From Branchiostoma floridae (Eukaryota; Chordata; Leptocardii; Amphioxiformes; Branchiostomatidae), in NCBI RefSeq assembly GCF_000003815.2, contig NC_049996.1, positions 5,718,012 through 5,782,011 of the forward strand: a stretch of 64,000 nt of DNA, read 5' to 3'. Below are positions 35,241-63,817 of this stretch, piece after piece. Position numbers and translations under genes: made by a program. The notes under the pieces were generated by a model. The model was not told the origin of the DNA. It saw only the letters and a program-made list of their open reading frames with translations, and did no database searches. How positions within the stretch are numbered: the stretch's first letter is position 1; each line of letters starts with the position of its first letter.

Positions 35241-35404
<164 letters not shown>

Positions 35405-36615: not shown

Positions 36616-36677
36616 TCAACCTTTCTCACAGATGAATTCTTTTTCGACTAAGCTGCAAGGTTGAAGAGTCCAAGGAC
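36616..36677 (-). CDS. Gene E last exon: C-type lectin C-terminus
   Basis: Acceptor cgactgttgcag, phase 1, encoding PWTLQPCSLVEKEFICEKG and TGA at 36616-36618. PCS...EFICEK is the canonical end of a C-type lectin domain. Confidence 0.8.
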
Positions 36678-39600
36678 CTGCAACAGTCGGGAAGACAATG
36701 CTTACATTTAGGGAGAAACAAGGCTCACATTTTAACATATGATTCTTATAGACACACACATTGCTTTTATATTCGTTTTTATGTTGGTAGACTTCAGTCA
36801 TAATCATTCATTATGTTGTAATTTCAAGCATAAAATGAAATTAAAACAAAATTGGTGGCAGAACAGCACCAGCACCACTGTCAAGATATGGGCAATCCGG
36901 TGCTTCTGTGACGTCACATTATGCATATAGACACGTGAATCACGTGTGCATATCATTACAGACGTGCCCACAGAAGTAGTGGGTTACCCACACATGACAT
37001 TAGCATGGTTTGCATTCCAATTCAAGTCGGAAACCGATGACATTAAGATGAGCATACTATCTATGAAAGGGCATTTGTATGGTGATGACACACCGTGGCG
37101 CTCCAGAAATGCACAGAAAGGATCGTTGAGTCTCCAAATATATTCCCGGAAGCCGGTATATGAAATGTTCTGTTCCCGGAAGGCGTTCCCGACCGGACTT
37201 CCATCGCTCCAAGTAAAATCAACCATTTTCTAAAGAAAGAATGGAAAACGAGTAACGAAGAATTTTCGATTTTTTTCTCTGCGTAAAAAGTTTCATCAAG
37301 TTGGTACGTCACTGAATAAAGTAAAGATACTCTTTTTACACAACCATTGCTTTATTTCAGCCGACCTTTCGGTGACCGTCTGTCAGTAGTTCACTATTCA
37401 TATAAAATCTGCATAAAGCAGTCTATACATATGTAAATACTTTACGTTTATAAGCGCATCTGTAAACTGTAATCGACACTTATAATTACTGCCGCAGTAT
37501 AATGTGAACCAGTCAGATTTGCCCTGAGGAAAGTCGGTCACGTCGGCGCAAATAAAGCATTGTTGTGTATATGGTCTCTTTAATCAAGAACAATAATCGA
37601 AAACCAACACACTAGCGGTACTCTGTGATAACAGTCGACTGTTTTATAGAATCCAAATCAACCAGATATGTATGAAGTGCTGCGCATCCAAGCTCGTGTT
37701 TGGTTTCAGGTACGGATGCATGTCCATGGCATATGTGTACTAGAAATGCTTACTTTTCGGTTCCATGTAAAATTGCAAGTTGCCGTAGATTTGACAAAAA
37801 AATGTGAAAACTATACATGACAATTTACATATTTATAAAGTTCTTCTATATAGTCAGTAGTAAAAAAGATTCTCAGTTATAATACATGTTTTAGTTTTTC
37901 CGGCGCATATTTAACCTCTATGTAAGGTTTTCGATACCCAGCACTAGATACATGAAATGATTTCTAATGCCCAACTAGTAAGGCAACAAATTTCGGAAAA
38001 CGCAGGATGCTTTCCTCCCATTAATTGGCACAGCAAAAGAAGATGAAAGCTCTTCTGCAATCCTAGATACACAAAAAATGACAATTCAATGCAGTGATTT
38101 GAACAGGAGATATGCCACATCCAACGAGCGGGATTGGACTACTTTTACACTACGATTTTTGAGATCTTAATATTCCCTGTGGTATTTACCTATTTTCACA
38201 CTAGAAGGACTGTCTTCTCATAGACTATAATTAAATCTACGGTGAGGGGATTTTTCTTTTCAATCCAAGCTGATCTGAATATATCTATGTTAAGATTAAT
38301 CAAGATGACAAGATGACATTAAGATGACAGCACCAAGCTTCATTCCTATCCATCCAGTTTCAAAGGAAATGCGGAGAAACTTGTTTTCCTGCAGTGTGTT
38401 GACGGCCGCCAGGTGGCCACCCAGAGCTTGGCAGTACCTCTCTGCAGCCCACCAGACGAGTGGAGAGGGGAACTTCTGGTAACAGCGCTCTTCAAACATC
38501 CTCCAGCCCTTGCCACAGGAAAGGTCCTTAGCGCGTTGTTCTGAAATTGTGTAAGAAGTCTGAAATATAGCGGCCTGTTTGCCCTATTTTGTCGCTTACC
38601 AAAATGACAGTTGTGTGTTTGCTGCAAGAAGAAGTGGGTGTGCTTTGCGCAAAAGTGAGTGATCTTTGTCGCATCAACAATAGCATACTGCATATGAACC
38701 TCAAGCAAAGTCAAGGATCTTGCCAACATAAAAAAGAACGGGTATAATTTTTAACCATTTGGCCAACATTTGTTGGAACCAAGGTAATGAAGATACCCTG
38801 TGTAAGTATCACATATCATACACAAGAAGATATATCACATACGTTTACAGAGAATGTAAACGATGTACAAGATAAAATACGTGCCGCATGCCGTACCCTT
38901 TATTGGGCATCCCAGCAGTCCTATGTCCATTGCTGCAGTTCCCACCCGCGAGTGCGGTGTAAGCCTCACCACCTTGGCGTGCACTGCTATGGCCAGGTGA
39001 AGCACCTCTCGTCCAGAACGATCAAATGTTGCTTGGAACATCTTAGAAATTTGAATACGGAAGGATATGCATTGAATGTCAACATCCTAAAGTTAGAACC
39101 ATGACTTCTTTACCTCTAAGGTTTGTAAAGCCACCGCTGTTACAAGACGCTAACAATGTTGAATCATAAAACATAAGGGCTATTCCTAGGATGACTGATT
39201 GTCTATTTTATTCAAAAGACGGATAAAAGAGACGCTTAAAGAATTCAAAGATAGGAAAGAATGATCAGTGAACAGTTTCATCGGGTCGTTGCGTCACTGA
39301 ATAAAGAGACTCTTTTTACACAAACAACTATTGATTTATCCACACCGACGTTTCGGTGAACGTCTGTGACTGTCCTGTACTGCAGCCCTAGGTGTCGCTG
39401 CTTACAGTGAACAGATGCGGTCACAAACATGTACAGAAACTGCTTTGTGCGAATATTTAACATACGATACCCAATGTAGAGGAGTGTAATCACTGTGATA
39501 TATAGGAGTGTGATTTTCAACAATAAAAATGACCTCGTGAATAAAGCAATGGTTTTGCAAAAAAAGACTCTTTATTCAGCGAATAATGATGTAAATCAAA

Positions 39601-42600
39601 ACGCTAGTGGAAACAAAGGAAAATTCAACACACCTTCCTTTCGTCCCCTTCCGTATATGCTGTCATGCAGGCGGTCCCCAGCCCATATTCCAATGCAAAG
39701 GTGTGTGTATGTGCTGATTTTACACCAGAGACAACAACTCCGGCCAGCTGTATGGGGCTTGCCAGGGTTATTTGTAGCCAGTCGTCATCACCTTCCACCA
39801 CCCAGTGCGTCAGGAACAGCCCACGGTTTCTGCGACTTAGGTAGCTACTGGTACTGCCTATACCTTCATCAATGGAATATCCCTCCAGAAGTAAGGGCAC
39901 TGGTACAAAACAAGCCCCAATCCCTATGGAGAACACACGATGATCGGCACAAAGTCATCTTTGTGACGCGTGTTATTGATTATAAGACCAACTGAAACTG
40001 AATGAATCTCACGTCAAAACTTATAAACGATGTGATATATGTCCAGCCTGGAAGGTTCCGGGTCAAAGTTGAAATCTGAGGGATGGGCAAGGGCGCGTGG
40101 TTTTCTCCTTAACGTTTGGTCCCTGTTGCTTAGTGACCGTTAAAGTTAAGCAGAGATTTTTTTCTGATATCTTGAAAAGCCTTTGGGTTTTAGTATTTTG
40201 GCCGTGGAGCAGTTGGTCGGCCCTCGAAACCTTTTTTGGGGGGTATTCGTCTGCTACAACGGTGATGCGTTTTTTCCGCCCGATGACCGAAATAGCATCG
40301 TTTTTCATACATTCTAAATGAATTTGCGTCATCGCCAGAGATTTTGAAAAGGTATCACATGTACTTTTTTTTTATTTTCACAGACATGAAGTACTTCTCT
40401 CGCATGTAAGCTACTATCATGTGAGAATTATTTTTCGATCAGCTTCTTTTTTTTAAAAAAAGGTACACAATATACATTTTACTGGAGATTCTAACCCAAA
40501 AAAGAGACAACGGACTATACTAACAAGACCATCGGAAATCAGCAGAAAAGGGTTTTTCACCGTTGTGGTTTCATGATGTAATTATGCTCACCAATGCAGG
40601 CATCTTCGTCTGAAGCGTCAGAGCAGTCCGGTATGCCATCACAAAGATTGTTCGATGAAAAGAACCGATTGGTCTGGATGCATGGTAGTCTGTCTCTGAA
40701 CATAGCTAAGCACAGACAAGAAAAAGTTGTATGAAGTACATTTCATCGTGCACATCTTTGTGTAAGTTACCGGCATACCAACTATCATGGAAATCCGCTG
40801 TTCCGTTGGCCTAATCCTCCCTAAAAGATTCTCATAGAGTTACCCCCAGGAGTTCCAGCGCAAGGTGCTAGGGGGCCCAAATCTACACTATATCCTTGTA
40901 GCATGTCCAGGACAAAAGATACAAAAAAATGGACGGTCTGCTGCATTATCAATGTCGGACACCAGGGGGCCAGAGTCGATATTGTCCACCGTATTCCCAA
41001 CAACTATCTACATAACAAATACTAGGGGTGGTACCGGTACAGAAACTTCAGGTACAGGTACGGACCTGGACCTAATTGTCTGTGAACTTATCATGCTCAA
41101 AACAACGGTCCATTTCACTAACAAAGCATTATGTTAGGTAGAGTATCCGACGTACTTTGGTGTTTTAAAATCTTATCATCGTGTGAAAAACACTAACTGC
41201 CTCTGTTTTAGACCATGTTTGACTATGGAAACTTGGTAAAATGAGATATCATCTCTCCTCTACTTCGCTCTTGCTATTTGCTTTGACATGTAAGCCGCAA
41301 AACACGTAAACGCCTGTCGGTATATATTTGTTCATTTTCGAATCGGTCCAACATCCGGTCCATTGATTTTTTTAGGTCCGATTTTTTCGGACCGGTCCAA
41401 CAAGAAAAAACGGTTTTGTACCAGTACACTGTACCGGTACCCACCCCTACCAACTACCATCACAATACGGAAACACATAAAGACAGACAACACACAGACG
41501 GATAAAAAAACAATACCTCCATTTGTCATGTAGGTAACAACATGTGTATATGATTTCATAATATCAAGATAGTACGTTGACAATGCTAAAATGTCGCTGT
41601 GAATGCGTTCTCGGAATGGCGAATGGCCTTCTTCACATCAGTACTTGAGATCGCGTGGCGCAGCGTGTTTGCCTCGGGAACGAGAGGTCTCGAGTTCGAA
41701 CCCGACTGCCATGTCACCGATCTTGTGCCCTTGGGAAAGGCACTTTACACGACTTTCCTCACTCTACTCAGGTGAAAATGAGTACTTAGCTTAGCTAGAT
41801 AGGACGTTAAATGGAGGTCCCGTGTCTGGGGAGAGCCATACCCCAGGTACGTTAAAGAACCCGCCACATGTGCGATGGTGCGGCGTGAGTGGTTCAAAAC
41901 CTACAGTCCCTTGGCCGCACCTGGGGCAATTACTGTCGTATTGAGGTCACCTGAGTGGCACCGAATGGCAGCTCGCTCCAGACCCTTGCGATTTAGCCCC
42001 GCCTATTGTAAGCTCCTCGCAATTCAGCCCCTGCCTGCCAAGAGAGAGTAGCGGCCCACCCAATAACCATAAAATACTTCGAAACACTTCAAACACTTTA
42101 CACGGAAACAACATTATACTGCCTTCATTATACTGCCTTCGTTAACTTAACATAAATTTACCACATCTCCTTGGACTCTCGTCCACACCAGTCCTACAGT
42201 CCTCTCGACCGTCGCAATACTGTGAAAAGCTGATTTCCTTGTATGTTGATCGGCCTATCAACGTATCCATGCATTTAGTTGTGGCTGGTTTTGGAAAGAA
42301 AACAGTACAGAAATAAACAAGTTTTAGTTCAGGATACCTGTGAACAGCATTTCAGCATATTTTACTGTAATTGTAATTGTACTGCCGCAATATCACCATG
42401 TCCTGTACTTAGGTCGCAAGAGCATACATGTACAATAAAGATTTTTCAAGTTTCATTCATTCATTCATTCGTTCATTTCTTCCTTACTGGTTCACTCATT
42501 TATTCATTCATTCCTTCACTCACGGTAATTTGATTACATCATTGCCATTAGTCACAGCGGACTAATATGTTCTGAAACTAACCAAGATATAAGGAGTGCA

Positions 42601-44200
42601 TAAAATTTTGGTGTATGATTATACTTTAATTTAATTTACATAAAGTAATTTATCAATGCCCACCAAATTTCAAATCATTACCTGACAAACGACACCTGGG
42701 TAACGTTAGGTGAGGTAGAAGAAAGGGTCATCGATCTGAGGTGTTCAAAGTTATGATCAGCTGGTCAAAGTCAATTTGCTCTGCTGAAAATCAGATACCC
42801 CCTTCTTTCTGGTTGAAGTACGAGGGGAATTCTCAGCAAACATTTGTACAAGATTTCGTGGCATGAGGAACACAGCTCTAACATCACAGTTCACCCTTGT
42901 TTTCCTCGTCACTTACCTTCTGATTTTCAAAAAGACGTCGACCACAATGATTTGAAATTTGGTGGAAATTGGTAAAATACTCCATGCTATATAGTTATGA
43001 CCATAAATTCGAGTTGTGCACCTTGGTGAGGAGCAGAACTTACTGATCACCCCTCGTAAGGCTTATTAGAGGTTATATATATATATTTATATATATTACC
43101 TACCACAGTTTGTCTCTTCTGAAGAATCTAGACAGTGCGGCACCCCATCGCATGGGTGATCCTCATTTGGGCACTTCCGTGTCGCCTCGCACGTTTCGAA
43201 ATGACAGTTTACTTCCTCTGAAGAAAGAAACTTCATCACTTATCACATTTATTTGTTTTTCGTTTGTTTGTTTGCATACCAGGTAAACCGTAATTTTTGG
43301 AAACGGGTGAAAAGTGGTGCACGTGCAGATGTCACCTACATATTCAGATCAACATCAGCCAAAAGAGTTTTATCAAACGGCTATAAACGATATTTGTGTC
43401 GCGCAGATCTAGACTGTTGCATGGTACAGATGACTATGTGCCAGGAACATGTACATCCTCTCTTGTTCAGCAGAGCTGAAGACTTACGCCTCTTGTTTTG
43501 TCTTCGTTTCTTCAAATTGGAAGATTTCGACTTTCCCTTTGGTATTTGCGGATTAGTCAGAATACTTGTCCCAAAGGCCTTATGTCAGAAACTCACCTAG
43601 CAGTAATTTTATAAGTGTTGAAAATGTAGGACAAGTACAGACTTTGATCATGATTAGAGCCAGTAGCAAGGGAAAGAAGAAGAAAAAATTATGACAATCT
43701 GTTACTTTAGCTGATGGCTAATGCAATACTAGCAGCTAGTGGTAGTGCAATGCGGCTTCGCTACAGCTCGCGTTTTGACCTAGCACACCGGGCCACTCCT
43801 ACTCTTCTCGGTATGTGTTGGGATTAGTGTGCAGAGGCTTTAAGGCTATAAATGATGCATGGAGATCCCGCATACGTACAGGGGCCGCTGACGTCACGAT
43901 CGAAATGACGAATGCGACCCCTTACAACATAGCTGAGTCAACGCTAGCATCAAACTCCGGCGCAGGGATCACGGAATTTGATCCAAATGGCCAAGCAGCG
44001 GGATTACGTTACAACTTGGGCCACGGGGGAGGGGGCAAATGATCTACGCAAGCCTGGCCTAGTCTTGTGTTCTCTCGCGAGATCGAGACTAGGTTATTCT
44101 CCGTGATCAAGATGTGCTGTCAGGCATCGAAAATTTGGAGGTATGTACTTAACCTTTAAAACAGTCACTGTTGGAAGAATATTGGTAGTAACCGGAAAAT

Positions 44201-44267
<67 letters not shown>

Positions 44268-53200: not shown

Positions 53201-56200
53201 TAGCAGCATCCCTACCGCCAAGATTTAGATACAACTGGGCTTGCTTATGCCAACTTGTATTCAGGGGAGACGGAACCGTTAGAATTTTCCCCAGTAATAC
53301 ATGCAATCCAATGGGAGAGTTGAGGAAAGAAATATGCAATTATCTCAAGAATAAAAAGTTCAAGCCATACAAACTTACCCTCAAACGATAGCCTACTATG
53401 TCCAGTCTCATCGAATTCATTTGCAAGAATTTCTATACGGCTAGTCTCGAGATAGACCCCCCAATCAGAGCCCTTGGATGGATCCTTTTGGCTAAAAGCA
53501 GCATCCAGGGGATGATATCATTACCTCATGGGTGTGCCAAAACCCCCCAACTGGTTAAAGGTCATTATTACCTCCATGAAATGTCATGGAGGTTATATTT
53601 TACCCAGCGTTTGTCTGTGTGTCTGTCTGTGTGTGTGTAAACAAGATAACTCAAGAACGGCTGGATGGATTGGTTTCATACTTGGTGTGTTGGTAGGGTG
53701 TGATGAAAGCTAGAAATGATTAGATTTTGGGCCCCCTAGCGGCTCCCCTTTGTACTGCAGCGCAACTTCCGGTTTTGCTATCTCGTGTTCTGAAGAAGCT
53801 ATGGTCACGATTTTAAGTGTTAGATAGCTCTTGTGCTCAGGATTAAGTGACATGAGTTTGGGCCCCCTAGCGGCTAGTTTTGGGATGGCAGGGGTATTTT
53901 TGTCAAAAACTTCTGAAGACAATAACTCAAGAAGGGAACAACGGATTTTCATGATTTTTGGTATGTAGGTACATTAGACAATGTTGTACAAAATTAAATA
54001 CTAATTATGCAAAATAGGAGCACATTTGCATAATTAATGAGAATATTCTATCATAGCGGTTTTTTCTATGTATCTCTTGTCCCGGACATGATATGGTCAT
54101 GGCATTTGGGTGGTAGATAGCTTTCAGTGTCATGACAAAGTGGGGCAAGTTTCAGCTCCCTAACATTTAATTGTAGAACTGCAGGGGCGTTTTTGTCAAG
54201 ACATTCCAAAGGGGATAACTGCAGAAAGGATTGACGGATTGGCATCATATTAGGCATGCAGGTACCTTAGGCAAAGATGTTCATAATGATATACATGTTA
54301 TGCAAATGAGGACTTAATTTGCATAATTAATGAGGAAATAGTATAATTCCATTGTTTTCAATAACTGGACTTCAATAAATGTAACACATGTAATTATGAT
54401 AGGTGGAATATAAGCAGATACCAAATACGGTAATGAGGAACTTATTTGCATAATTTATGTAAAAATTGCAAAACCGCTTTATGATTAATAATGGGAATTT
54501 TATAATTGTGACATGTGTACGTTAGTCAATGATGAACAACACCATGCATAAATTATGTTAATGTGTTAGTCAATTGCATGAAATTTACGAAAGCTCTAAA
54601 TTTTCATGGAGGTATGAGGTCGCCGAACTCTAGTTTATAACTGATTCAACACGTTTAGGGTCTTTCCTACCGCTGCCACCCCCAAAATGCTCAGATTTAA
54701 CATAAAATCCCACCAAGAAAGGCTTTTCAATGGTTTAAAGCCTTGCAGGCGCTAATTGTGGTGTCTCCTCTTGTAAGTTTAATATCATTCTGGATCCAAG
54801 CATAACTATAATTTCCAAGACAAATACTGGACTAACCCAAAGGTTCGGCAGTCCGACCTCAGTCTTTTTCAATCAATAAGCAATCCACTGCTTCTGTGAC
54901 GTCACGTTATACTGATAGAACATGTGACTCGGTACGCAGTGGATTATAAGTTTCAGAAAGTCTATGCCGCCCCCGTGTCTGCTGATGGATTGTTGTAAAG
55001 ACCAGATGCAAATAGCTTTTATTCCCTTCGCAAAAAAGTCTGATTCTGTGTCCAAGATTCTTGCTTTTTCCAGTGAGACAGAGTGCATAACGTGACGTCA
55101 CAGAAACGGTGTGTTGCTCATGACATTGTCATTCAAGACGGGAGTTCGACAGTCAAACATTTTGGTAATTTCAATTCTTGAGTTGGAAATTAAAGTTAAA
55201 CTTTGATCCAGAATGTCTTCTACTATCACCAACGAACTTTCGAGCTAAAATATTGTTTGCCATTACCACAGCCGATTTCATCTGAGAAGTCCACGCAGTC
55301 CACTATCAGATTGCACCTATCCTGTTGATTGATGCACTTTGGAAAGGGCGGGACCGATGATTGACAGATCCAGTAGCCAATAGAGTGACAGGACTCCTCT
55401 TGAGTTTAAAGAAAAGGAAATATGATTTAGTGCGTCTGAATCACACGTGTGGGTATATCCAAGTCCGTTTGAGTTGCGTATTGACATTATTTCGGCTTAG
55501 GTAAACCGTAAGGTTTGTGGCCGAAGAAGCAATTTTTAAATGGATAACCAGGCTGGATAACAGTGGGTCATGATCAAATTATAAAATAACTTCTTCCGAC
55601 ACAAAAAAATGTCAGTACGGAACTAGAATATAAGAACGGGGCCTAAAATTTACCACTGTAAACATGTGCAATTGTGCATCATGTTTGGCATGTGCATCAT
55701 GTGTGACATATGCATCATGTTTGACATGTGCATCATGTTTGACATGTGCATCATGTTTGACATGTGCATCATGTTTGACATGTGCATCATGTTTGACATG
55801 TGCATCATGTTTGACATGTGCATCATGTTTGACATGTGCATCATGTTTGACATGCGCATCATGTTTGACATGTGCATCATGTTTGACATGTGCATCATGT
55901 TTGACAATGGAGGCTACGACCACTCTGAAAACATGCATGCCTGGCCAAAATAAATCAACTAATTCCGCGACGTACGATTGACGCATTATAGAGGTTTCTA
56001 AATATCATAGAAATATGGTCATCATTTGCATCAATTATATCAGTTGATGATCTTCTCTACCCAATAACAGAAGTTGTCCAAAGAATGAAATTCTAATGAG
56101 ACAGATACACCGAAAACAATACCTCCGCGTACACGGAGGTGACAACTCACCGCAGTTCTCTTCGTCCGAGCCATCTGCGCAGTCAGCAATGCCGTTACAC

Positions 56201-59200
56201 AGGAACTCTCCTTTCACACAGCCGGGGGAATTACGGCACTTCCAGTACGCAATGTCACCAAACAAGCCATGCAGGGAGCAGAATTGTTCTTTCAAAAAAA
56301 GACAAAATATTACACTTTTTAAAATCAATTCATTGCTGGATATAGAAGAATTCTTGTACACAACCAAAATTAAACTTACTTGCTTACGTTTCGGTGTCTA
56401 TCAGGCACCTTCCTCAGAGCTTCTGACTGGAGTTCTGCTTCTCGCCGCTATATGTAGCCGATGTAGGTGGCGCTTTTGCGGCGAGAACATTATCCCAAAC
56501 GTGTCCGAGTTTATATCCCCCCTCGTCCCGGTTCATCACTGGGGTTGACTTTCTTATCCATACCGCCTCTTTAATCCACCTGAGTCGTCTGTTGTCTTCC
56601 CTGCAAAAGCGCTACCTACATCGGCTACATATAGCGGTGAGAAGCAGAACTCCAGTCAGAAGCTCTGAGGAAGGTGTCTGATAGACACCGAAACGTAAGC
56701 AAGTAAGTTTAATTTTGGGTTGTGTACAAGAATTCTTCTATATCCTATATTCTACCAACCTGATGAAATTATTTTCTGTAATTCATAGCTGTTAAGAATA
56801 CGTTTACCGTGCAAACCATGGGCTGCCCTGGGGACGCATAACCTCCGTTGCACGGATAACCTCCGTTGTACTTGTACGACGTATTGCCTCTCTAACTCCA
56901 CGTTCGAACCAGCGGGGTTCGCTGTCTATAGATCAAGCCTTAGGGCATTATATATTCCTTGAATAGAGTAATCGTCTGTCGGTGGTCTTCTTACCACAAC
57001 CGGTCTCATCCGATCCGTCAGAGCAGTCTAGGCCACCGTCACAGACGTTTAACATGTGGACACAGCCTTCCAAATCACGGCACTGGATCAAGGCCCGTTT
57101 CAGAGTTTCGTATCGGTGATAAAAGTTGGAACAGCTATCTGCAAGACGGTTGTGTTGGGTTGAATAGGGGTTGTGTCACTCTCCTCCCATTGTATCTTTG
57201 TCATCTATTTACATCGTATCAAATAGTATCCATCTACCTATCTATATTTTCTATATGTACTATTTCCATCTCCTTCTGTATCTATCTAGCAGTCTAGTTA
57301 GACAGCTATTCATTTCTATATACTAGTAATCTATATAACCACCTCTATCTATTCATATCTATCCTATCTATCTATTAAGCGTAGAGAATTACGGTTGATA
57401 AAGATGGCCATAAAACTTTATGGTGCATAGATGTAGGACGTCCTACGATTTTGGTGTGGTAGATTTTTCAGGCACACTACCTTATAACCAAACGCATCAA
57501 GACAGAATTTTCCGTAACAAGACACATGCATATCACACAAATGCATTCAGCTTGATCGTACAATTATGGTGCGATGTGTCTGACCGGGCCTGTACTTTGT
57601 ACAGTCACGATTTCAAAGAAACCATTCAGGAGTTATTCGTACCTAAACAGTTCCATTTGTCCACCTTGCTCTCTCCACAGTTCCATTCCCCGTCGCACAC
57701 ACGGCTGGGGCTGTAGCAGCCTAGTTCTCCGTCACACATGCGCCTGTGTTTCTCAGGGCATGCAGCAATCCCTGGAAACAAAAATAAGCGAGGCAATCAT
57801 ATGCTTTGGTCATGATTGGAAAATGGAGTCCCGCTGGGTAGTTTAAAGGCTGTTTTCGGTATGAACGATACGTGGCCTCTGTCGTACCTTTGTTTCCTAT
57901 TGGACTACTAGAAAATGTTCTCATCGTTTCATATCAATTCATAGTTCGGATACAAAACCTGCTCTCCAACAAGATCTCAAGATTGGTTGTGTCATCTTCT
58001 CCCCCAACCCCAAAACAAGCGCAATATACAAGTACAACCCCTACGTACTGATTTAGCCATATTTGTTTCAGTTTGTTTCAAAAGCTAAGGCCCCCTTTCC
58101 ACTAGGACGGCGATCGTACTGCGCTCTCACTGCGACCTACATAGGATATGTGTAACCCTCGATTTCATACTGGATATATCATACAAAACGTAAAAGTGTG
58201 ATTGAAAAGACAACAAAATGCACAAAGTGTGGATATGTGTAACCCTCAATTTCATACTGGATATATCAAACAAAACGTAAAAGTGTGATTGAAAAGACAA
58301 CAAAATGCACAAAGTGTAACAAGATTCATTTCCTTTCGATATAATTCGTTGAGCGATAAGTCCAATTTTAGGTCGCAGAGAGAGCGCGGTGAGAGCGCCT
58401 TCCTAGTGGAAACGCTATGAAAAACAAGCTATGAAAAACGTTACTGCCATGGCGACGATTGTGGGGAACATAAGACAACTCAAACCGGCAATCGACCGGA
58501 AGTTCCTGTCATGAAGATTTTCCTTGCTGGTTCCGCAGCCTAGTCATAAAGATTCTTAGCTGGTAATTGAACGATACTAACCGTGCTGTCCTGTCCAGTA
58601 TTGACATCTAAGAAAAGATATTTAACGTTACATGTTACATGTGTACTATGTACATTCAAGTTGACTCTCTACCATGGACTTGCTACCTTTGTCTGGCATT
58701 TCTGACCGACTAGTTTTCTCGGACGAATGCTTGCATGGAGCCTGCATGACCTATAGTACAGTACTATACCATTGGGGCTCGCCCCTGAGGCGTCATCAAA
58801 AACTTACAACAGTTTCTTTCGTCGTTGTCGTCACCGTCTCCACAATCTACAACTTCGTCACAAACGCTACATTCTGGAATGCAGTTGTCGCTGTGAGGAC
58901 AAATGATCTCGTCCTCTGCGCAGAGACGTTTTTCTATAACAAAAATACATTTTTCTTAATACGTTTTATATAACTGCCCTTCAAATTTCGCATAGTTACA
59001 CTTTATAATTCAGACTCTCTAAAGTGAATAGGAAAACAACAAACCATTTCACAATGTGTGCAGTCGTAATGCATTGTGACACAATTTTAAGGTCCCTACC
59101 TTGTAAACAATTCTTGGTCTAAACAATTTTTGTTGACATGTTTGCAACGTTTCCGCGTGGCTGTGGGGCAAAGGTCTGTAATACACGGATTCTAAGCATA

Positions 59201-62200
59201 TTTTAGGCTTGTAACGTTAGAAGCCTTTTTATGACAGTGTAAGATAACTTGCCCCCCAACGACCTGGAGTTCAAGGGACTAGGTAGGTAAGTAGGTAAGA
59301 TAATTACGCAGACATTATACAGAATTACCTCTTTGGACAGCATTGCACATAGAACGACCTTTCAGGCCCACCTGGCACACCTCCCCGTTGACAGATCTTG
59401 GTAGAACTTTGACGTACGCTCTGTGGGAGGATTCAACACCCCAAACAACCCCGTCCCCCACAGCGACTTGCTGCAGGGTTACCCCCGGCACATGGACCCA
59501 TGCTTCGCCCCGGGACGTTTCGTTGAAAAATGTTCCAACTCTGTGATAGACTTCCCCTTCGTAGTCGACTATCCATATTCCAGCACGGCCCACCGACACA
59601 GATACTGCACAGCTGTCCATGGCTTCCCAGTCACTTTTAACTACATGTAAACAACATATATCCATGAAATATCTGAACTATGGAAATATTTCTACAGCTA
59701 CATAAACTATGCATTGTTGTATGTTACACGGTTAACCAGCAGGAGCACATCACAATGTCACAATGTTGTCATTCCTATCTTTTTATACAATGAAATTCCA
59801 TGTAGTTTAGCTTGGACACAATGTTTGCAACAAGAGTTCGTTGACCTCAGGCCTGCATGAAATATATTAGGTGTCTGTAGACCTATTGTGTATTTTTTTT
59901 CCTTTTTGTCTCCGGTACGTGGTTGGAAAAGTGAGATTTTTACCGTGTTGGTGAGCGGACCCAAACATACACCTCTTACTCTCTTCCATCTTTCTCAGTA
60001 CATATGTGACAAATTTGTGTCATATCACGGAATGCAGTGGATTTATCAACTTTCCTCATTAATTATGCAAATTAGCTGTTAATTTGCACACTTAGTATAT
60101 CATTACGTACGTTTTTACTTAGGCTATCTACATACTAAAAATCATGACGATCCGTCAACACGTTCATATTTTGCCATTAATTATGCAAATGAGGTCATCA
60201 TCTGCATAATCAATATGTATTGATATTTCTTTCTTTCTCAGCTACAAATGTGACAAGTTTGAAAGTCCTATAAAGGAATACAGTGGATTTACAAACTTTC
60301 CTCTTTAATTATGCAAATTAGCTGTCGATTTGCATAATTAGAATTCCATCATGTAAGTCTTCCCCTTGGCTATCTACATACCAAAAATCATGACGATCCG
60401 TCAACACGTTTATGTTTTCTTATTGATTATGCAAATAAGCCCGTCATTTGCATAATCAATTTGCCTTCATATTTCTCTCTTTCTCATCTATATATATGAC
60501 AAGTTTGAAAGTCCTATCATGGAATGCAGTGGATTTATAAACTTTCCTCATTAATTATGCAAATTAGCTGCTGATTTGCATAATTAGTATTCCATTATGA
60601 ACATTCATTTGTTACTTGGGCTATCTACATACCAAAAATCATGACGATCCATCAACACGTTCTCTAGTTATTCTCGTCCAAAGTTTGAAAGGAAATCGGC
60701 GACTGCAGTTCCAAAGAAGCCGCTAGGGGGTCCAAACTTACAGCACTTACTCTCTGCCCCAAGGGCTATCTACCACTCAAAAATCACAACCAAAGCATGT
60801 GCAGAACACTAGATATTAAAGATTGAGGTTCTGCTGCAGTACCTTAGCAAGCCGCTAGGGGACCCATTATCGAACTTGACCTTCGTTTTCCCGACCCCTG
60901 TCCACCTACCAAATATCATTGGGATCCATCCAAGGCTTCTCGAGTTATGCTGTTAACACGCAGACACACAGACCCACAAGCCCAAAACATAACCTTAGCC
61001 ATTCTGGCAAAGGTGACCAATTCAGCACCGATATATCATCTGGCAGCAGCAGCATCTGGCACAAACAGGGGATACAAAGTAACCCAATACATTGAAGGTG
61101 ACCTACATGTAGGCCCCTGCAAACCAGATGACGATTACACAAGTAAAGACCTATCAATCAGCCCAAACCCTGGAAAATCACCTGTTTTCACAACCAAGCA
61201 GATGTTAGTGGACCTGAACCCCAACCAAGAAAAAAACAGCATCATGCCTACAGTGTCAAGTTCATGCACTAGGAAGCCCAAAATCAAACCTGACCACCAG
61301 GACATCAGCACAAACCCATGTACCAAATAGCAAGACAATGGCACCTTGCGTTCCGGATATACAGCGCATGCCCCGTGCCCGCACAAAAGGTAACCTGGAA
61401 TGTCAAGTTCAAGCACCAAGGGCGCCAAAATCAAATTTGAGAATTATTCAGCCACCGCCGACACATGTGCCAAATATCATCGCGCCCGCACCAACCGTTC
61501 AGAAGATATAACTCCGGAAATACCCCTCCCGAACACAAAATTCGACCTGCCGTGTCAAGTTCAAACGCGACTAGGCCCAAAGTCAATCCTAGGCAACAGG
61601 CAACAACTCCCCACCCATGCACCAAAAATCGTCGCTATGGCGCGTATCGTTCCGGGCACACAGCGCCAAAAGTGCCCCCAAAACACAAAAAATGCCATCT
61701 TCAATGTCAAGGTCAAGCACCAGGAAGCCCAAAATCACACCTGAGTGTCAAGCTACCACCCCCAACCCACGTAATAAAAATCGTTGTGCTCGCACCATCC
61801 GTTCTCGAGATACAGCGCCCTACATCCCCAGCTACCAAAAATTCCCACGCCCATGAAAACCATACCTGCATACATGCAGGTAATTAGTACTTGCGTTACC
61901 ACTCAGCATCCGCCATAAGCAGCTTTATGTGGGTGTACTGGCTGACCGATTTGTTCGTGTTCCGAGAACTCTTTGATGAATTCACCACAGACGTTCTAGG
62001 AATCGAATATTAGGTCTGCATTGAAATTTTTCTCCGAGAATACCAGAATATCGAAATTGTTCTTGTACTTGTTCAATAAAGTCTATCTGTACTGAACTTG
62101 TTTCGTCTTTTGAGAATTCAATAATAGAATTTTTTGCAAGTTCATGCCCGAGGGCTAATTGCAAGTACATGGTATAAACATAGTAGATATACAAGTGACA

Positions 62201-63696
62201 ATGGACAGTTATGAACAATATTCTACTCTAATACTAGTGTTGGCTAATTCTAAACAGGTTGGGTTTGACTTCTTTTTTGGAAGCAGAGGGAGAGGAAAAG
62301 CCCCACCCTTTCTAAAATTTGTGGGTTCTGTGATTTCAAGAGAAAAGTGGCTAAGTGATTCTTTCGGCTTGGTTGAATGAACATTTGGAAATAAAATGTG
62401 TTTCAATGAAGACTAAAAGTGTCGTCGTACCAGATATTTCACAGTAGAAAGGTGACCGCCACACTTTTCCGCCAACTTCGACCGCCCACAGCTGACCGGT
62501 TCTGGAGCTGACGCTGACTTCTTTCATATTTGTTGCTCCTACAACTTGCCATGATTTTCCTTCAGGTGTTTTCGAGTTGATACCTTTTAAGATGAAGCAG
62601 AGATGTCAGCATTCTCAGAAAAAGAATTGATTAATTGGCTAAGATGACATAGAAACATCGGAGGGGTGATCAATAAGGATATACACCAAATGTCCAGTCG
62701 ACGTCTTTTTGAAAATCAGTAGGTAAGTGGCGAGAAAAACAAGGGTGAACTGTGATCAGAGCTGTGTGTGTCGTGTGTTCCTCTTGGCATCAAAATCTTA
62801 AAAGACATTGTTAAAATCTAATGAGTATTTCCTACATTTCCTTCTTATTTCGACTGGCAGGAGGTAGGTATCAAAAGCCGTGTAAGAGCCAAACATCTAA
62901 TGTCAACTTCATGTTTGTTAACTTTTCCTTCTCCCCCACCTAACGTTACTGGGTATCGCCTGTAATGTAGTGATGGCAATAATTTGAATTTTGGTAGACA
63001 TCCGTAAAAGGCTTTATACTTAATAATGATACCTCAAGATTTAAGTTGCACATTATGTCTTACTTACTGAACACGCAGTTTTACCATTGAAATAAGGATT
63101 AGAAAGGGCTTTAACGGTATATTGTTTTCTATAACGGAGCAAATTTGCATGTTAACGTTTTGAATCCAGCTTTTCGTTGGGTATGTTGGTATAGACTTGG
63201 AGTGGGGCTGGCTATTATTTTATGGGGGCGCTGTTGGCTAGAATCAAAGTTGGCTATGGTTCTAAACTGGGAAAGGGAGTTTTCTGTGGGAGGGAGTTTG
63301 CCTGGAAATGCAGTTTGCCGTGGAAGGAGTTTCGCTCCGTCCCGGGGTATAGAGAGAACCATAGCCAACTTTGAAACTAGCCATTCAGCGCCCCCCCCCC
63401 CCTCATAAACTAAGAGGCAGCCCCGCTTCGTCTGCGAAGGAGGGTTATGTCGGTATATACATCTACATAACATTATCAACCCAAATATACAAGCACCTTT
63501 CCTGACTATGGTGTATCCATGGTTGAAATATGGGAAACTTCCGATGACCCAAACTAAGTCTTTCCCCGAATGTATCCAGTCGATGTCGTGGCCAGTCCAG
63601 TCATAATTCACTAGATGTGTTTCAAAGTTGAAAAGACTGAAATCTGCAGTACTGATATCGACTGCCTTCCACGAGGTTCCTGTCGCCATCTTGTTT
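36616..63696 (-). CDS. Gene E: tectonin - 12x LDLa - F5/8C - C-type lectin protein (5' end beyond window)
   Basis: Minus-strand exons in order: tectonin 63497-63696, 62431-62583, 59329-59640; LDLa 58808-58933, 57643-57771, 56995-57138, 56151-56288, 55267-55398, 52892-53059, 52203-52331, 51477-51623, 46792-46935, 44519-44686, 43104-43217, 40592-40705; F5/8C 39634-39899 and 38897-39041; lectin about 38329-38540, 37094-37229, 36616-36677. Every LDLa exon is phase 1 to 1, and the assembled frame is open for roughly 1,045 codons. One junction is doubtful (38329/37229). A secreted or membrane multi-ligand recognition protein is inferred. The first tectonin exon begins in phase 2, so more exons lie right of the window. 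Confidence 0.85.
36893..36975. repeat. Small palindromic element with CRE-like TGACGTCA
   Basis: 'CTTCTGTGACGTCACATTAT' and an inverted partial match downstream, around the core ACACGTGAATCACGTGT. Related to 54886-55118. Confidence 0.5.
37094..37229 (-). CDS. Gene E exon: C-type lectin middle part
   Basis: Acceptor ttctttctttag, donor gtgtgt, phase 0 to 1, encoding KMVDFTWSDGSPVGNAF, a stretch without the EPN/QPD motif, and NDPFCAFLERHG. The phase 0 start does not match the best donor of the preceding exon. Confidence 0.7.
37310..37585. mobile_element. Inverted-repeat element related to PLE termini
   Basis: Arms around ACACAACCATTGCTTTATTT (37340) and its inverse (37555) enclose 'GCCGACCTTTCGGTGACCG' and 'CCCTGAGGAAAGTCGGTCAC'. 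CTGAGGA is present, but GAAAC is altered, so the hammerhead-like core is degenerate. Confidence 0.6.
38329..38540 (-). CDS. Gene E exon: C-type lectin N-terminal part
   Basis: Acceptor aatttcag, phase 1. It encodes CGKGWRMFEERCYQKF, WWAAERYCQALGGHLAAVNT and ETGWIGMKLGA. Donor choice is uncertain: gtcatc after 38329 keeps the frame, and gtgctg after 38334 breaks it. The donor side overlaps an 'aagatgaca' tandem repeat (38295-38330) that may have altered the original site. Confidence 0.75.
38897..39041 (-). CDS. Gene E exon: F5/8C domain, second part
   Basis: Acceptor atttctaag, donor gtacgg, phase 0 to 1. It encodes MFQATFDRSGREVLHLAIAV, then HAKVVRLTPHSRVG and MDIGLLGCP. A-x-x-V-R-L-x-P and the closing LLGC are discoidin signatures. 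Confidence 0.85.
39285..39590. mobile_element. Related inverted-repeat element, degenerate
   Basis: 'CACTGAATAAAGAGACTC' at the left and its inverse (gactctttattcagcg) at 39565-39585. It contains ACCGACGTTTCGGTGAACGT, whose complement has GAAACGTC but no intact CTGANGA. It ends about 45 bp from the F5/8C exon. Confidence 0.55.
39634..39899 (-). CDS. Gene E exon: F5/8C domain, first part
   Basis: Acceptor ttttgtaccag, donor gtgtgt, phase 1 to 0. It encodes PLLLEGYSIDEG, HWVVEGDDDWLQITLASPIQ, LAGVVVSGVKS and MTAYTEGDERK. The pattern PL-x-LE-x-G-x-I and D-W-L-Q-I-x-L is discoidin-like. The usual N-terminal cysteine is supplied by the preceding exon. Confidence 0.85.
40592..40705 (-). CDS. Gene E exon: LDLa-like module 12 (degenerate)
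   Basis: Phase 1 to 1, 38 codons: LPCIQTNRFFSSNNLCDGIP followed by DCSDASDEDAC. The calcium-binding CDGxxDCxDxSDE cage is intact, but only four of six cysteines are present. Confidence 0.85.
40790..41010 (-). repeat. R1-related fragment
   Basis: Contains 'gctagggggcccaaatctac' and 'gtagcatgtccaggac', as in the copies at 49,000-50,800. Confidence 0.6.
41023..41449. mobile_element. MITE of the TAGGGGTGGTACCGGTAC family
   Basis: Terminal inverted repeats TAGGGGTGGTACCGGTACA and its complement. The interior has mirrored 'gtccgatttttt'/'ggaccggtcc' blocks. Fragments of the same family lie at 11226-11685, 14165-14345 and 51250-51420. Possible TA target site. Confidence 0.75.
41645..42060 (+). mobile_element. 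tRNA-derived SINE
   Basis: Box A TGGCGCAGCGTG (about 41655) and box B GAGTTCGAACCC (about 41693) are followed by a long body. The last part recurs inverted at 63818-64000, and body parts recur at 31640-31920 and 48300-48490. Confidence 0.75.
42590..43050. repeat. Interspersed repeat, inverted copy at 62660-63010
   Basis: 'tctgattttcaaaaagacgtcgac', 'ttcacccttgtttttc' and 'acctaacgtta' blocks occur in reverse order and complement near 62690-62960. Confidence 0.65.
43104..43217 (-). CDS. Gene E exon: LDLa module 11
   Basis: 38 codons, phase 1 to 1, acceptor ctttcttcag, donor gtaggt: NCHFETCEATRKCPNEDHPC then DGVPHCLDSSEETNC. The cysteine spacing is kept, and SSEE replaces the usual SDE. Confidence 0.85.
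43815..44042 (+). other. Unassigned 75-codon ORF
   Basis: More GC-rich than its surroundings, ending in YNLGHGGGGK. I do not recognise the sequence. It lies antisense in a gene E intron and is followed by a small palindrome (44060-44095). It could be an exon remnant or transposon-derived. Confidence 0.2.
44201..44262. repeat. (TA)n microsatellite
   Basis: Uninterrupted TA dinucleotides. Confidence 0.97.
44288..44490. mobile_element. MITE, about 200 bp
   Basis: Inverted ends AGTTCACCTTTATCTGTGAG and beyond, matching over about 42 bp to GTTGTTTTT. The right end is 29 bp from the LDLa exon at 44519. Confidence 0.8.
44519..44686 (-). CDS. Gene E exon: LDLa module 10
   Basis: 56 codons, phase 1 to 1, acceptor gtcgttacag, donor gtaaat: SCIGQWASHEIAKVF ... 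YTCGLGTCPSWIYLCDDVNI then CGNWEDEQNC. The aspartate cage is partly replaced (CGNWEDE), so calcium binding may be weakened. Confidence 0.8.
44807..44944. mobile_element. MITE of the GGCCATGTTGATT family
   Basis: Ends 'atgttgatacgattatatgg' and 'ccatataatacaatcaatat' are inverted copies. Same family as 11115-11922. Confidence 0.65.
45546..45807. mobile_element. Palindromic element interrupted by the assembly gap
   Basis: Left arm (ending TGCGATAACCACC at about 45610) and right arm (starting AGGTGGTTATCGCA at 45740) are inverted copies over about 60 bp on either side of the gap. Confidence 0.75.
45640..45739. other. Assembly gap (100 N)
   Basis: Exactly 100 N, the usual placeholder for a gap of unknown size. 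It falls in the gene E intron between LDLa modules 9 and 10, so a missing exon cannot be excluded. Confidence 0.99.
46138..46183. repeat. GC-rich perfect hairpin
   Basis: ACCGGCACCGGTGTCGAT and its near-perfect inverse are separated by TTGC. Confidence 0.8.
46792..46935 (-). CDS. Gene E exon: LDLa module 9
   Basis: 48 codons, phase 1 to 1, acceptor atatcacag, donor gtaaga: YCNDIGGFFCGDTNECKEQH, RVCDGHPDC, then a 14-residue insertion (SFYRYGGYIPPPDE) before LSC in place of SDE. Confidence 0.85.
47055..47290 (-). mobile_element. Retroposon 3' end with (CAAA)n tail
   Basis: On the minus strand a body ends TTAATAAATAAAGGTTC followed by (AAAC)n (47055-47088 on plus, gttt repeats). It resembles a LINE/SINE 3' end; the class is not determined. 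Confidence 0.5.
47330..47391. mobile_element. Single arm of the PLE-terminus-like element
   Basis: 'accttcctcagggaaattct' then 'gactggttcac' matches the arm at 37510-37540 (inverted). It abuts the truncated start of the NHL pseudogene. Confidence 0.55.
47392..48234 (+). pseudogene. NHL propeller pseudogene, truncated, frameshifted and interrupted
   Basis: Translation RLNERVQVLSLNGTFLRLLP parallels gene B (NKRVQVSSINGTYLRLFP) and continues collinearly through DVTIDRKGRLWVVG, YIAVDDKGNFFETS and DICIDALGRVLVAQ. There is a frameshift at about 47750. A stop at 48050-48052 coincides with a roughly 95-bp insertion, after which the frame resumes ALAPGGQLVVTHGNLVSIFP to TAG at 48232-48234. The 5' part is lost at the junction with another element. 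It lies antisense in a gene E intron. Confidence 0.85.
48049..48147 (+). mobile_element. Short retroposon inserted in the NHL pseudogene
   Basis: A roughly 95-bp segment ending AAAATAAAATCAATCAATCA lies between NHL codons, flanked by AAGT/CAAGT on both sides (probable target duplication). A (AATC)n tail suggests a LINE 3' end or SINE. Confidence 0.65.
48300..48490 (+). mobile_element. SINE body fragment
   Basis: 'actcaggtgacaaatgagta', 'ggataggacgttaagtg' and 'gtgtgagtggatcaaacctt' match the SINE at 41645-42060 after its tRNA head. Confidence 0.65.
48590..50800 (-). repeat. Two adjacent R1-type copies plus a fragment
   Basis: Termini 'actagagttcggcgacctca' and 'tacctccatgaaatatttag' occur at 48841 and again at 49873. 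The copies end with (CA)n at 49848 and (CATA)n at 50705-50748. Read minus, they match 53571-54636. Confidence 0.75.
51250..51465. repeat. Fragments of the GGTACC MITE and of R1
   Basis: 'caaaacaacggtccatt' matches 41098-41115, and 'atacccttcttggcgaaggt' is an R1 terminus. The R1 piece ends about 12 bp before the LDLa donor. Confidence 0.6.
51477..51623 (-). CDS. Gene E exon: LDLa module 8
   Basis: 49 codons, phase 1 to 1, acceptor gtgaaaacag, donor gtattg (weak): FCDSIGGSRCKCGRLTKCHL, DRCDGLRMCYAPGSPYDCAD and DEENC. It has eight cysteines and a small insertion, and is therefore an atypical LDLa. Confidence 0.85.
52203..52331 (-). CDS. Gene E exon: LDLa module 7
   Basis: 43 codons, phase 1 to 1, acceptor tgttcttctag, donor gtaagt: PCFGTHDWQCPGENTCLSGD, SVCNTLIQCANGEDEKHC. 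All six cysteines are present. Confidence 0.85.
52560..52877. mobile_element. GC-rich MITE beside an LDLa donor
   Basis: Ends TAAGGGCACAACTCGCC and inverted TAGGGCACAACCCGCC. Internal 'ACGTACGG' motifs and a GC-rich palindrome (GCCGGCAGAATTTTGCCGGC). The right end is about 14 bp from the donor at 52892. ORFs across it are not real. Confidence 0.8.
52892..53059 (-). CDS. Gene E exon: LDLa-like module 6
   Basis: 56 codons, phase 1 to 1, acceptor attttcaaag, donor gtacgc: FCGPHAISAFDVVDL ... HAFCIPSENICNGLIEG, THDEMDC. A long first loop and HDE in place of SDE. Confidence 0.8.
53571..54636 (+). repeat. R1-type repeat copy
   Basis: It starts with the small hairpin ACCTCCATGAAATGTCATGG and ends TTTTCATGGAGGTATGAGG followed by GTCGCCGAACTC. 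The ends are inverted with respect to each other. The interior has GCCCCCTAGCGGCT blocks and ATGCAAAT-rich blocks. Confidence 0.75.
54886..55118. mobile_element. MITE with TGACGTCA-containing TIRs
   Basis: Ends CCACTGCTTCTGTGACGTCA and inverted ACCGTTTCTGTGACGTCACG, each extending to ACGTTAT. Every end carries a CREB/ATF-type octamer. Confidence 0.75.
55267..55398 (-). CDS. Gene E exon: LDLa module 5
   Basis: 44 codons, phase 1 to 1, acceptor ttaaactcaag, donor gtaatg: SCHSIGYWICQSSVPPFPKC, DRCNLIVDCVDFSDEIGC. Six cysteines and SDE kept. Confidence 0.9.
55672..55905. repeat. 18-bp minisatellite
   Basis: About 13 units of CATCATGTTTGACATGTG. ORFs on both strands (for example repeated HVKHDA or CASCLT) are artefacts of an 18-bp unit. 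Confidence 0.95.
56151..56288 (-). CDS. Gene E exon: LDLa module 4
   Basis: 46 codons, phase 1 to 1, acceptor tttttgaaag, donor gtgagt: FCSLHGLFGDIAYWKCRNSP, GCVKGEFLCNGIADCADGSD, EENC. A well-conserved LDLa with the full acidic cage. Confidence 0.95.
56380..56425 (-). ncRNA. Hammerhead ribozyme motif, left arm
   Basis: Minus-strand CTGAGGA, stem II GGTG/CACC, GAA, ACGT, A and AGC. It is the same as the right-arm copy, except that one change shortens stem II by two pairs. Confidence 0.6.
56658..56703 (+). ncRNA. Hammerhead ribozyme motif, right arm
   Basis: CTGAGGA (56665-56671), stem II GGTGTC/GACACC (56673-56678 and 56684-56689), GAA (56690-56692), ACGT stem III (56693-56696), cleavage residue A (56697), and stem I GCT/AGC. 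Confidence 0.7.
56995..57138 (-). CDS. Gene E exon: LDLa module 3
   Basis: 48 codons, phase 1 to 1, acceptor tcttgcag, donor gtaaga: SCSNFYHRYETLKRALIQCR, GCVHMLNVCDGGLDCSDGSD, ETGC. CDGxxDCSDGSDE cage intact. Confidence 0.95.
57225..57380. repeat. Degenerate (CTAT)n tract
   Basis: Imperfect tetranucleotide repeat with interruptions. Confidence 0.7.
57643..57771 (-). CDS. Gene E exon: LDLa-like module 2
   Basis: 43 codons, phase 1 to 1, acceptor gtttccag, donor gtacga: ACPEKHRRMCDGELGCYSPS, RVCDGEWNCGESKVDKWNC. The cysteine order is right, but the C-terminal acidic cage is lost. Confidence 0.85.
58090..58414. mobile_element. MITE with an internal 87-bp tandem duplication
   Basis: Ends TTTCCACTAGGACGGCGATC and inverted TTTCCACTAGGAAGGCGCTC, reaching CTGCGACCT. 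Between them an 87-bp unit is present twice (58144-58230 and 58231-58317) with about two differences. Confidence 0.8.
58808..58933 (-). CDS. Gene E exon: LDLa-like module 1
   Basis: 42 codons, phase 1 to 1, acceptor gttatag, donor gtaagt: LCAEDEIICPHSDNCIPECS, VCDEVVDCGDGDDNDERNC. Rich in acidic residues, with one extra cysteine pair. Confidence 0.85.
59329..59640 (-). CDS. Gene E exon: tectonin repeats
   Basis: 104 codons, phase 1 to 1, acceptor ttacatgtag, donor gtaatt. AVSVSVGRAGIWIVDYEGEV, YHRVGTFF, EAWVHVPGVTLQQVAVGDGV and VWGVESSHRAYVK show the tectonin pattern I-x-VG-x-x-G-x-W-x-V and W-x-x-V-x-G. Tectonin propellers bind lipopolysaccharide and glycans in several animals; ligands here are unknown. 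Confidence 0.85.
59830..61013 (-). repeat. R1 dispersed repeat, inverted copy
   Basis: Collinear on the minus strand with 22362-23462 from GCCAGAATGGCTAAGGTTAT. It holds three ATGCAAATTAGCTG-type blocks. Confidence 0.75.
61240..61860. repeat. Degenerate tandem repeat, about 125-130 bp
   Basis: Recurring 'tgtcaagttcaagcacca' then 'gcccaaaatcaaacctga' and 'cacccatgcaccaaaaatcg' in about five units. ORFs on both strands here are repeat-derived. Confidence 0.65.
62431..62583 (-). CDS. Gene E exon: tectonin repeat
   Basis: 51 codons, phase 1 to 1, acceptor ccttttaaaag-like, donor gtacga: EGKSWQVVGATNMKEVSVSS, RTGQLWAVEVGGKVWRSPF. A W-x-x-V-x-G and VSVSSRTGQLWAV tectonin unit. Confidence 0.8.
62660..63010. 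repeat. Inverted copy of the repeat at 42590-43050
   Basis: 'gtcgacgtctttttgaaaat' and 'aacaagggtgaactgtgatc' are reverse complements of sequence at 42885-42955. Confidence 0.65.
63222..63402. mobile_element. Palindromic MITE
   Basis: Ends GGGGGCGCTGTTGGCTAGAA and its inverse (to a C-run) match over about 40 bp, including AAGTTGGCTATGGTTCT. Confidence 0.8.
63497..63696 (-). CDS. Gene E exon: tectonin-like repeat (first in window)
   Basis: 66 full codons, phase 2 to 1, acceptor aattttcacag, donor gtgctt: GTSWKAVDISTADFSLFNFE, DWIHSGKDLVWVIGSFPYFN. GTSW is the common start of a tectonin blade. ATG within NKMATGTSW could be a start, but the open frame to the acceptor favours an internal exon. 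Confidence 0.7.
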
Positions 63697-63817
63697 CTGT
63701 GAAAATTCGTTGTATATTCATTGAAAAATGCCATTCAATGATAGCACAATAAGCCTACATGTCTGTGCGTGTGTGTGGCTCCGCAACATGTGTGTGTTTC
63801 GGGAAAATGTACTATAC

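Follow-up and report, generated by a model that had tools for sequence, protein, structure and literature searches.

Several described protein families share parts of the protein considered here, a long mosaic of CUB, Sushi, tectonin, LDLa-like, F5/8C (discoidin) and C-type lectin domain (CTLD) modules. It is encoded on the minus strand of contig NC_049996.1 (C18) of the lancelet Branchiostoma floridae (assembly GCF_000003815.2), in and upstream of a stretch of 64,000 nucleotides, hereafter the window (positions 5,718,012 to 5,782,011 of the forward strand; G000:C18:5718012-5782011 (+)). With tectonin, tachylectin-1 and fish egg lectin it shares, by our reading, six tectonin repeats; as far as is known, these lectins consist of the propeller alone, whereas the lancelet propeller is embedded in a mosaic of 36 exons. 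With attractin it shares the presence of CUB, beta-propeller and CTLD in one large protein, as the available part of the source describes it (PMC8636034). Membership of the attractin family was rejected: the present propeller is of the tectonin type, and no EGF domain rose above the cut-off in the scanned pieces (EGF_CA reached only 0.044 in the ninth LDLa-like exon; the Pfam scan covered 35 of the 36 exons, the first exon lying outside it). Attractin also differs, to our knowledge, in its kelch propeller, its EGF repeats and its lack of LDLa, F5/8C and Sushi domains.

Tandem LDLa modules followed by an F5/8C domain recall SCO-spondin, to which the lancelet protein was not assigned either, none of the SCO-spondin hallmarks TSP1, VWD and CTCK being present in the 35 scanned exons. 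The best matches of the second CTLD (CTLD2) belong to the mannose receptor family, namely the yolk sac IgY receptor, phospholipase A2 receptor, lymphocyte antigen 75 and mannose receptors 1 and 2. The lancelet protein differs from this family in that its two CTLDs form no array, its scanned pieces contain neither FN2 nor ricin domains, and it shows no clear transmembrane segment, since just one of the 19-residue hydropathy windows over its 1,987 residues exceeds 1.6 (1.63, at the border between the thirteenth LDLa-like module and F5/8C).

As a kind, the exon-shuffled extracellular protein of lancelets is well known, and extracellular mosaics occur commonly in these animals. Lancelets differ from other species in their share of 1-1 phase exons (P<1e-16), and the available part of the same paper names no such architecture among lancelet exon-shuffled proteins (PMC4284660); the present mosaic is old enough for 19 diverged copies. 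The module architecture was not found in the one open-access library searched, by titles, beginnings of abstracts and selected passages, including a search for tectonin together with Branchiostoma. RefSeq gene models for the locus probably exist.

Gene structure and its copies in the genome

Rebuilding the exons with our own simple splice-site scores, also over 39.5 kb of upstream sequence beyond the window, we obtained a minus-strand gene that spans C18:5747917-5791205 (position 29906 of the window to position 73194 in extended coordinates). The joined model comprises 36 exons and 1,987 residues in a single frame with one stop, and encodes, in that order, a putative signal peptide, a CUB, a Sushi, two further CUBs, six tectonin repeats, 13 LDLa-like modules, F5/8C, CTLD1, a linker, a fourth CUB and CTLD2; this structure is very probably correct. 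The assignment of tectonin, LDLa, F5/8C and C-type lectin modules to one gene is strongly supported, because the order of the probed exons is conserved at all 19 loci of a paralog family. The preliminary description of the window had already placed these four families in one gene, and that core stood; its gene model was nevertheless truncated at both ends, and its architecture lacked the signal peptide, the four CUBs, the Sushi, two tectonin repeats and the second CTLD. Both its start and its stop looked convincing, yet were wrong: a reading confined to the window mis-sets the ends of the gene.

Concerning the start, the ATG at 63689 lies inside exon T1 and is internal, because phase 2 is shared by the end of the preceding exon Tb and the start of T1 at 63696; the upstream exons follow the same phase system as those described before. 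Concerning the stop, the TGA at 36616-36618 is intronic. In the four paralogs that reach past CTLD1, a gtgcg or gtaca donor (scores 3.5, 3.5, 3.5 and 0.7) and no stop come directly after the exon ending in "ICEK"; in the window copy this exon is followed by gttgag (-3.5), the TGA forming part of the donor, and the gene reaches 29906. The linker, CUB4 and CTLD2 are conserved in all four paralogs with sequence in that stretch. CTLD2 scores 54 bits for Lectin_C (cut-off 22.6) and keeps its QPD and W-Y-D motifs in the five copies with sequence there; these motifs suggest calcium-dependent binding of galactose-type sugars.

Between 63696 and 36616 we join 21 exons, one more than formerly counted. 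As had been claimed, the minus-strand exons share one frame and no stop codon stands at the proposed junctions; none precedes the last codon, and 18 of the 20 introns are in phase 1; the two exceptions, in phase 0, lie inside F5/8C and CTLD1. Over the full model, 30 of the 35 introns are in phase 1 and the other five all sit inside domains, so that neighbouring domains are separated by phase 1 introns throughout.

Domain scans of the joined translation agree with the families first named, with Pfam Tectonin at 3.2e-14 for the exons in the window, Lectin_C at 3.6e-13 for CTLD1 (50.6 bits, cut-off 22.6) and LDLa in several modules; F5/8C is matched below the cut-off in the window copy. Adding the upstream exons raises the Tectonin score from 53.3 to 72.1 bits (cut-off 30; Tectonin 5.8e-20, Hyd_WA 1.7e-21), and the sole match of the tectonin part in a search of the PDB is tectonin 2 (5fsb, 1.1e-5). 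The four CUBs all exceed the Pfam cut-off (41.6 to 77.9 bits, cut-off 21.4). The LDLa-like exons number 13 instead of the twelve reported; ten have six or more cysteines and three have four. Scanned singly, three of them (LA3, LA4 and LA5) pass the Pfam LDLa cut-off, and seven match below it (5.5e-5 to 0.011).

Searching the genome (513,431,437 bases, 431 contigs) with the tectonin part returned the window gene and 18 further loci whose T3 exon is 54-67% identical, a group well separated from weaker tectonin loci. The census of 19 copies is defined by at least 54% identity in this exon, the weaker loci being outside the module test. Searches with CUB4-CTLD2, F5/8C-CTLD1 and LDLa land on the same loci, which lie on contigs C2, C5, C7, C10, C11, C14, C16, C18, C19 and one small contig. 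Besides T3, nine exons were tabulated at all 19 loci (Ta, LA1, LA4, LA13, the first exon of F5/8C, CTL1a, CTL1b, CUB4 and the last exon of CTLD2), the coordinates being transcribed by hand from the genome-search matches. LA1, F5/8C, CTL1b, CUB4 and the last CTLD2 exon occur on the same strand and in the same order at 19 of 19 loci, Ta and CTL1a at 18 each, LA13 at 17 and LA4 at 16; all nine are present at 13 loci, and CUB3, counted by eye, lies upstream at all 19. The other exons were followed in five fetched copies, three from contig C14 (C14a to C14c) and one each from C11 and C16. The collinear exons number 36 of 36 in C14a, 32 in C14c, 31 in C11, 30 in C14b and 26 in C16. The missing ones fall mostly beyond the fetched stretch, and the three tectonin exons missing from C14b fall where 1,566 N lie. 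The 157 best exon matches at E up to 0.001 in these five paralogs hold no stop.

In Nei-Gojobori comparisons of six pairs over up to nine module groups (52 comparisons), dN/dS was below 1 in all 47 finite cases (0.05 to 0.80) and five were saturated; the ratios are rough and omit the most diverged parts, because most pairs have a high dS and the comparison was confined to matched stretches. They indicate purifying selection on the modules. CTLD1 has the lowest ratio in four of the six pairs (range over six 0.05-0.16), F5/8C the highest finite ratio in five (0.37-0.65), and LA6-11 the lowest amino-acid identity in four (46-66%).

A tree of exon T3 places the window copy, C11 and two C10 copies in one group (support 100/97) that excludes the other 15, the inner branches being mostly weak (two of 16 starred). 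At fourfold sites, the window copy matches the three C14 copies at 0.65-0.68 in CUB4 and CTLD2, 0.57-0.59 in F5/8C and 0.38-0.49 in the other modules, CTLD1 included. This 3' likeness is at odds with the T3 tree, and gene conversion with C14 copies at the 3' end (34328-29906), though not as one unbroken tract, is possible.

Other observations concern single copies or the spread of the family. The copy at C14:1.08 Mb has no CTL1a match between F5/8C and CTL1b, and may lack this exon or have a gap there. A second pair of CTLD2-like exons (C19:12983578-12985013, plus strand) lies downstream of the copy at 12.96 Mb of C19, and is perhaps a partial tandem duplication. Thirteen of the 18 copies on large contigs lie less than 3 Mb from a contig end (5.05 expected), copies on the same contig (six on C14) not being independent. 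The tectonin search gave at least 119 matches (150 of 164 candidates scored), including further ones at C5 28.1-28.9 Mb, C13 3.7-4.7 Mb, C4 3.0 Mb and elsewhere.

Proposed function and competing readings

From its module types, our best guess is that the protein would be a multivalent recognition or scavenger molecule. We propose, with a probability of about 0.6 that takes in the function, a secreted multivalent lectin likely to recognise microbes or debris; from the sequence we infer that the gene is expressed as one transcript and that its product is secreted, binds calcium and sugar and has an immune role. As far as the available parts of the sources go, horseshoe-crab tachylectin-1 (TL-1) and carp fish egg lectin (FEL) are six-bladed tectonin lectins for lipopolysaccharide (LPS) or lipoteichoic acid (LTA) and N-acetylglucosamine (GlcNAc) (PMC3269628), and for a human tectonin protein the reported ligands are LPS and M-ficolin (PMC2707011). 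In the lancelet protein, the tectonin propeller and CTLD2 would bind microbial or host glycans, F5/8C and the LDLa modules would extend binding to lipid or protein ligands, with calcium, and CUB and Sushi would link to other proteins (oligomers, proteases or complement-like factors), so that microbes or debris would be tagged and then cleared. Phospholipid or glycans are frequent ligands of F5/8C domains, LDLa modules take protein ligands together with calcium, and CUB and Sushi act as interaction modules; a tachylectin-related homolog of B. belcheri reportedly has antibacterial activity (a title listed among the references of PMC2880987).

The same secreted mosaic could instead serve a non-immune role, in egg coat or gamete recognition, in the extracellular matrix, or in feeding or gill mucus, a possibility that we consider rather unlikely. 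It draws on the fact that carp FEL is an egg lectin, and no feature found points specifically to immunity. That carp possess this tectonin lectin is stated in the available part of the source (PMC3269628). Against such a role, the 19 diverged copies and the microbe-binding types of module suit the recognition of varied ligands, which is a weak point.

The proposal of a secreted multivalent lectin also has to contend with the following points, which weigh against it or against the model on which it is built. First, LA2, LA6 and LA8 have no Pfam LDLa match when their exons are scanned singly, the number of six tectonin repeats was read by inspection of Ta, Tb, T1, T2 and T3 (Hyd_WA being significant in four stretches), and the first exon is supported by one paralog (40% over 25 residues), with no match in the other four fetched stretches. 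Second, the split discoidin domain named in the preliminary description holds for the family, the five-copy profile reaching in the PDB a factor V-like venom protein at 1e-13, factor V at 1.9e-9 and lactadherin at 8e-8, but the window copy falls under the Pfam cut-off (1.9e-4, 22.0 bits vs 28.2). All five copies match Pfam at E up to 0.01 (four as matched pieces; best 3.3e-5), and their cysteines C5 and C157, near each end, are invariant in the five aligned rows. Third, some splice sites score poorly (CTL1a donor -7.5, CTL1c donor -3.5, LA8 donor -2.6, CUB2i acceptor -2.5), the linker exon uses a GC donor, and the agreement of phases is not by itself independent evidence, because the splice sites were picked partly with phase in view. 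Fourth, CTLD1, which at the level of the domain confirms the C-type lectin first reported, is without the EPN/QPD and WND motifs. Such residues mark calcium-dependent sugar binding in C-type lectins, so CTLD1 may not bind sugar. Fifth, in the four readable paralogs (the fifth being N there) CTL1a extends about eight codons further to a gta or gtt donor (2.0, 1.1, -0.7 and -4.6), whereas the window copy diverges from them after GCTGTC, leaving the donor at -7.5; the CTLD1 of the window copy may be broken.

This last point bears on another alternative, namely that the window copy is decaying, the lost end of CTL1a breaking CTLD1 or truncating the protein while other copies work. The phase 0 end of CTL1a common to the four readable paralogs is missing here, only the donor at -7.5 keeps the frame, and the unspliced CTL1a frame runs into a stop nine codons past WIGMKLGAV. 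However, the remaining 35 exons are all open, the finite dN/dS values of the window copy compared with C11, C14a and C14c lie at 0.05-0.47, the modules 3' of the defect (CUB4 and CTLD2) are conserved too, and the CTL1a donor of C16 is itself poor (-4.6). On these grounds we regard decay as improbable, though a real contender. A further, very small exon lying between CTL1a and CTL1b was considered and is unneeded, CTL1a ending and CTL1b beginning in phase 0 in the four readable paralogs. Within the window, the 15-mer catcttaatgtcatc is confined to 38326 (the diverged end of CTL1a) and 37050 (the intron after CTL1b), on the minus strand, and this pair is perhaps the trace of a rearrangement that removed the end of CTL1a.

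That the exons are split among two or more neighbouring genes is very unlikely: the long introns (e.g. 4.5 kb between LA8 and LA9) and the TGA after CTLD1 would allow it, but the probed exons keep identical order and strand at 19 of 19 loci, the TGA is absent in four of four paralogs, and the open frame at 52045-51869, between LA7 and LA8, has no collinear counterpart. A protein spanning just ATG 63689 to TGA 36616 is hardly credible, the frame being open across 21 exons but this ATG being followed by no hydrophobic start and lying inside a tectonin repeat continued by upstream exons, and the TGA being intronic by comparison with the paralogs.

Coordinates, rejected candidates and surroundings

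Features of the gene (positions in the window, or in extended coordinates where marked ext.; percentages are identities in paralogs)
Feature	Position	Strand	Evidence and remarks
In-window portion of gene	29906..64000	-	26/36 exons; remainder upstream of window to ext. 73194 (G000:C18:5791205)
First exon, signal-peptide-like	ext. 73194-73119	-	translation starts MLWSLKVLLLTTSVW; matched in one paralog
CUB1	ext. 71822-71610, 70392-70288	-	Pfam CUB 9.4e-22
Sushi	ext. 69118-68918	-	Pfam 2.8e-9
CUB2	ext. 67780-67678, 67214-67096, 66386-66240	-	Pfam CUB 5.5e-19
CUB3	ext. 65767-65405	-	Pfam CUB 9.5e-19
Ta, tectonin	ext. 64853-64695	-	upstream of window
Tb, tectonin	ext. 64320-64206	-	ends in phase 2
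T1, tectonin repeat	63497..63696	-	begins in phase 2; 43-57% in 5/5 fetched paralogs
T2, tectonin repeat	62431..62583	-	present in 4/5 fetched paralogs
T3, two tectonin repeats	59329..59640	-	Pfam Tectonin/Hyd_WA; 64-68% in 5/5 fetched paralogs
LA1	58808..58933	-	LDLa-like, seven Cys; Pfam 3.1e-4, below cut-off; 76-82% in 5/5 paralogs
LA2	57643..57771	-	LDLa-like, six Cys; no Pfam match alone; 68-75% in 5/5 paralogs
LA3	56995..57138	-	LDLa, Pfam 2.1e-10
LA4	56151..56288	-	LDLa, Pfam 1.7e-10; 73-82% in 5/5 paralogs
LA5	55267..55398	-	LDLa, Pfam 2.7e-5, just above cut-off
LA6	52892..53059	-	degenerate LDLa-like, four Cys; no Pfam match; 27-37% in 4/5 paralogs
LA7	52203..52331	-	LDLa-like, Pfam 0.0019, below cut-off
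LA8	51477..51623	-	LDLa-like with insert, eight Cys; no Pfam match; 40-48% in 5/5 paralogs; donor -2.6
LA9	46792..46935	-	LDLa-like, Pfam 0.007, below cut-off
LA10	44519..44686	-	LDLa-like, Pfam 5.5e-5, just below cut-off
LA11	43104..43217	-	LDLa-like, Pfam 0.011, below cut-off
LA12	42162..42284	-	LDLa-like, four Cys; Pfam 4.2e-4, below cut-off
LA13	40592..40705	-	LDLa-like, four Cys; Pfam 1.3e-4, below cut-off; 70-78% in 5/5 paralogs
F5/8C first exon	39634..39923	-	Pfam and profile matches
F5/8C second exon	38897..39086	-	phase 0 join
CTLD1 exon a (CTL1a)	38329..38540	-	native 3' end and donor not found; sole frame-keeping donor scores -7.5
CTLD1 exon b (CTL1b)	37094..37229	-	exon join and paralog matches
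CTLD1 exon c (CTL1c)	36621..36677	-	ends at GT of gttgag
Linker exon	35649..35756	-	no Pfam match; 44-51% in 4/4 paralogs with sequence there; GC donor
CUB4 exon	33873..34328	-	Pfam CUB 1.7e-10; 79-83% in 4/4 paralogs with sequence there
CTLD2 exon a	33252..33470	-	Lectin_C 3.2e-14 for joined domain
CTLD2 exon b	30858..30927	-	part of joined model
CTLD2 exon c	29906..30090	-	QPD and W-Y-D; stop codon

Three candidates for additional exons among the LDLa-like modules were rejected. A hidden exon in the gap of 100 N at 45640-45739 is unlikely, LA9 and LA10 lying about 0.6 kb apart in C14a with no probe match between them. The open frame at 53517-53248 has exon-like splice sites, but its best E in the five paralog regions is 0.84. 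The open frame at 52045-51869 (minus strand) has a hydrophobic stretch, and its sole good match (6.3e-12, 63% over 41 residues) is at region position 1139 of C16; because this match sits upstream of the CUB2ii exon there, we take the frame to be probably a dispersed repeat.

Upstream of the gene, a minus-strand open frame of 680 amino acids (extended 83705-85744) looks, by inspection, like a leucine-rich-repeat protein that has a transmembrane stretch. Elsewhere in the window, the minus strand carries an open frame of 324 amino acids with NHL repeats (18434-19405, 4.5e-10) and, at the window edge (2-850), one with the reverse transcriptase domain RVT_1 (4.8e-8). Two tandem arrays lie at 16398-17906 (56-base unit, 26.8 copies, 94% matches) and 14397-15453 (18-base unit, 58.8 copies, 76% matches). 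An Rfam scan of the window gave no match at the gathering score.

Meaning for lancelet biology

To a specialist, the unexpected aspect would be the size and constancy of the family, in which a single long module order recurs in 19 dispersed copies. Tentatively, and at less than even odds, we suggest that these copies, often situated close to contig ends, may form a germline set of 19 secreted multi-lectin receptors, in which the conserved C-terminal modules CTLD1, CUB4 and CTLD2 would act as the framework and the LDLa and F5/8C middle part would diversify, i.e., an undescribed soluble recognition family of cephalochordates. If microbe binding were true, lancelets would possess a chordate soluble-lectin system that combines six module types in one chain. 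A very large lancelet mosaic that was assembled, kept exon by exon and is now found at 19 places offers a good test case for whether shuffled proteins turn into functioning receptor families.
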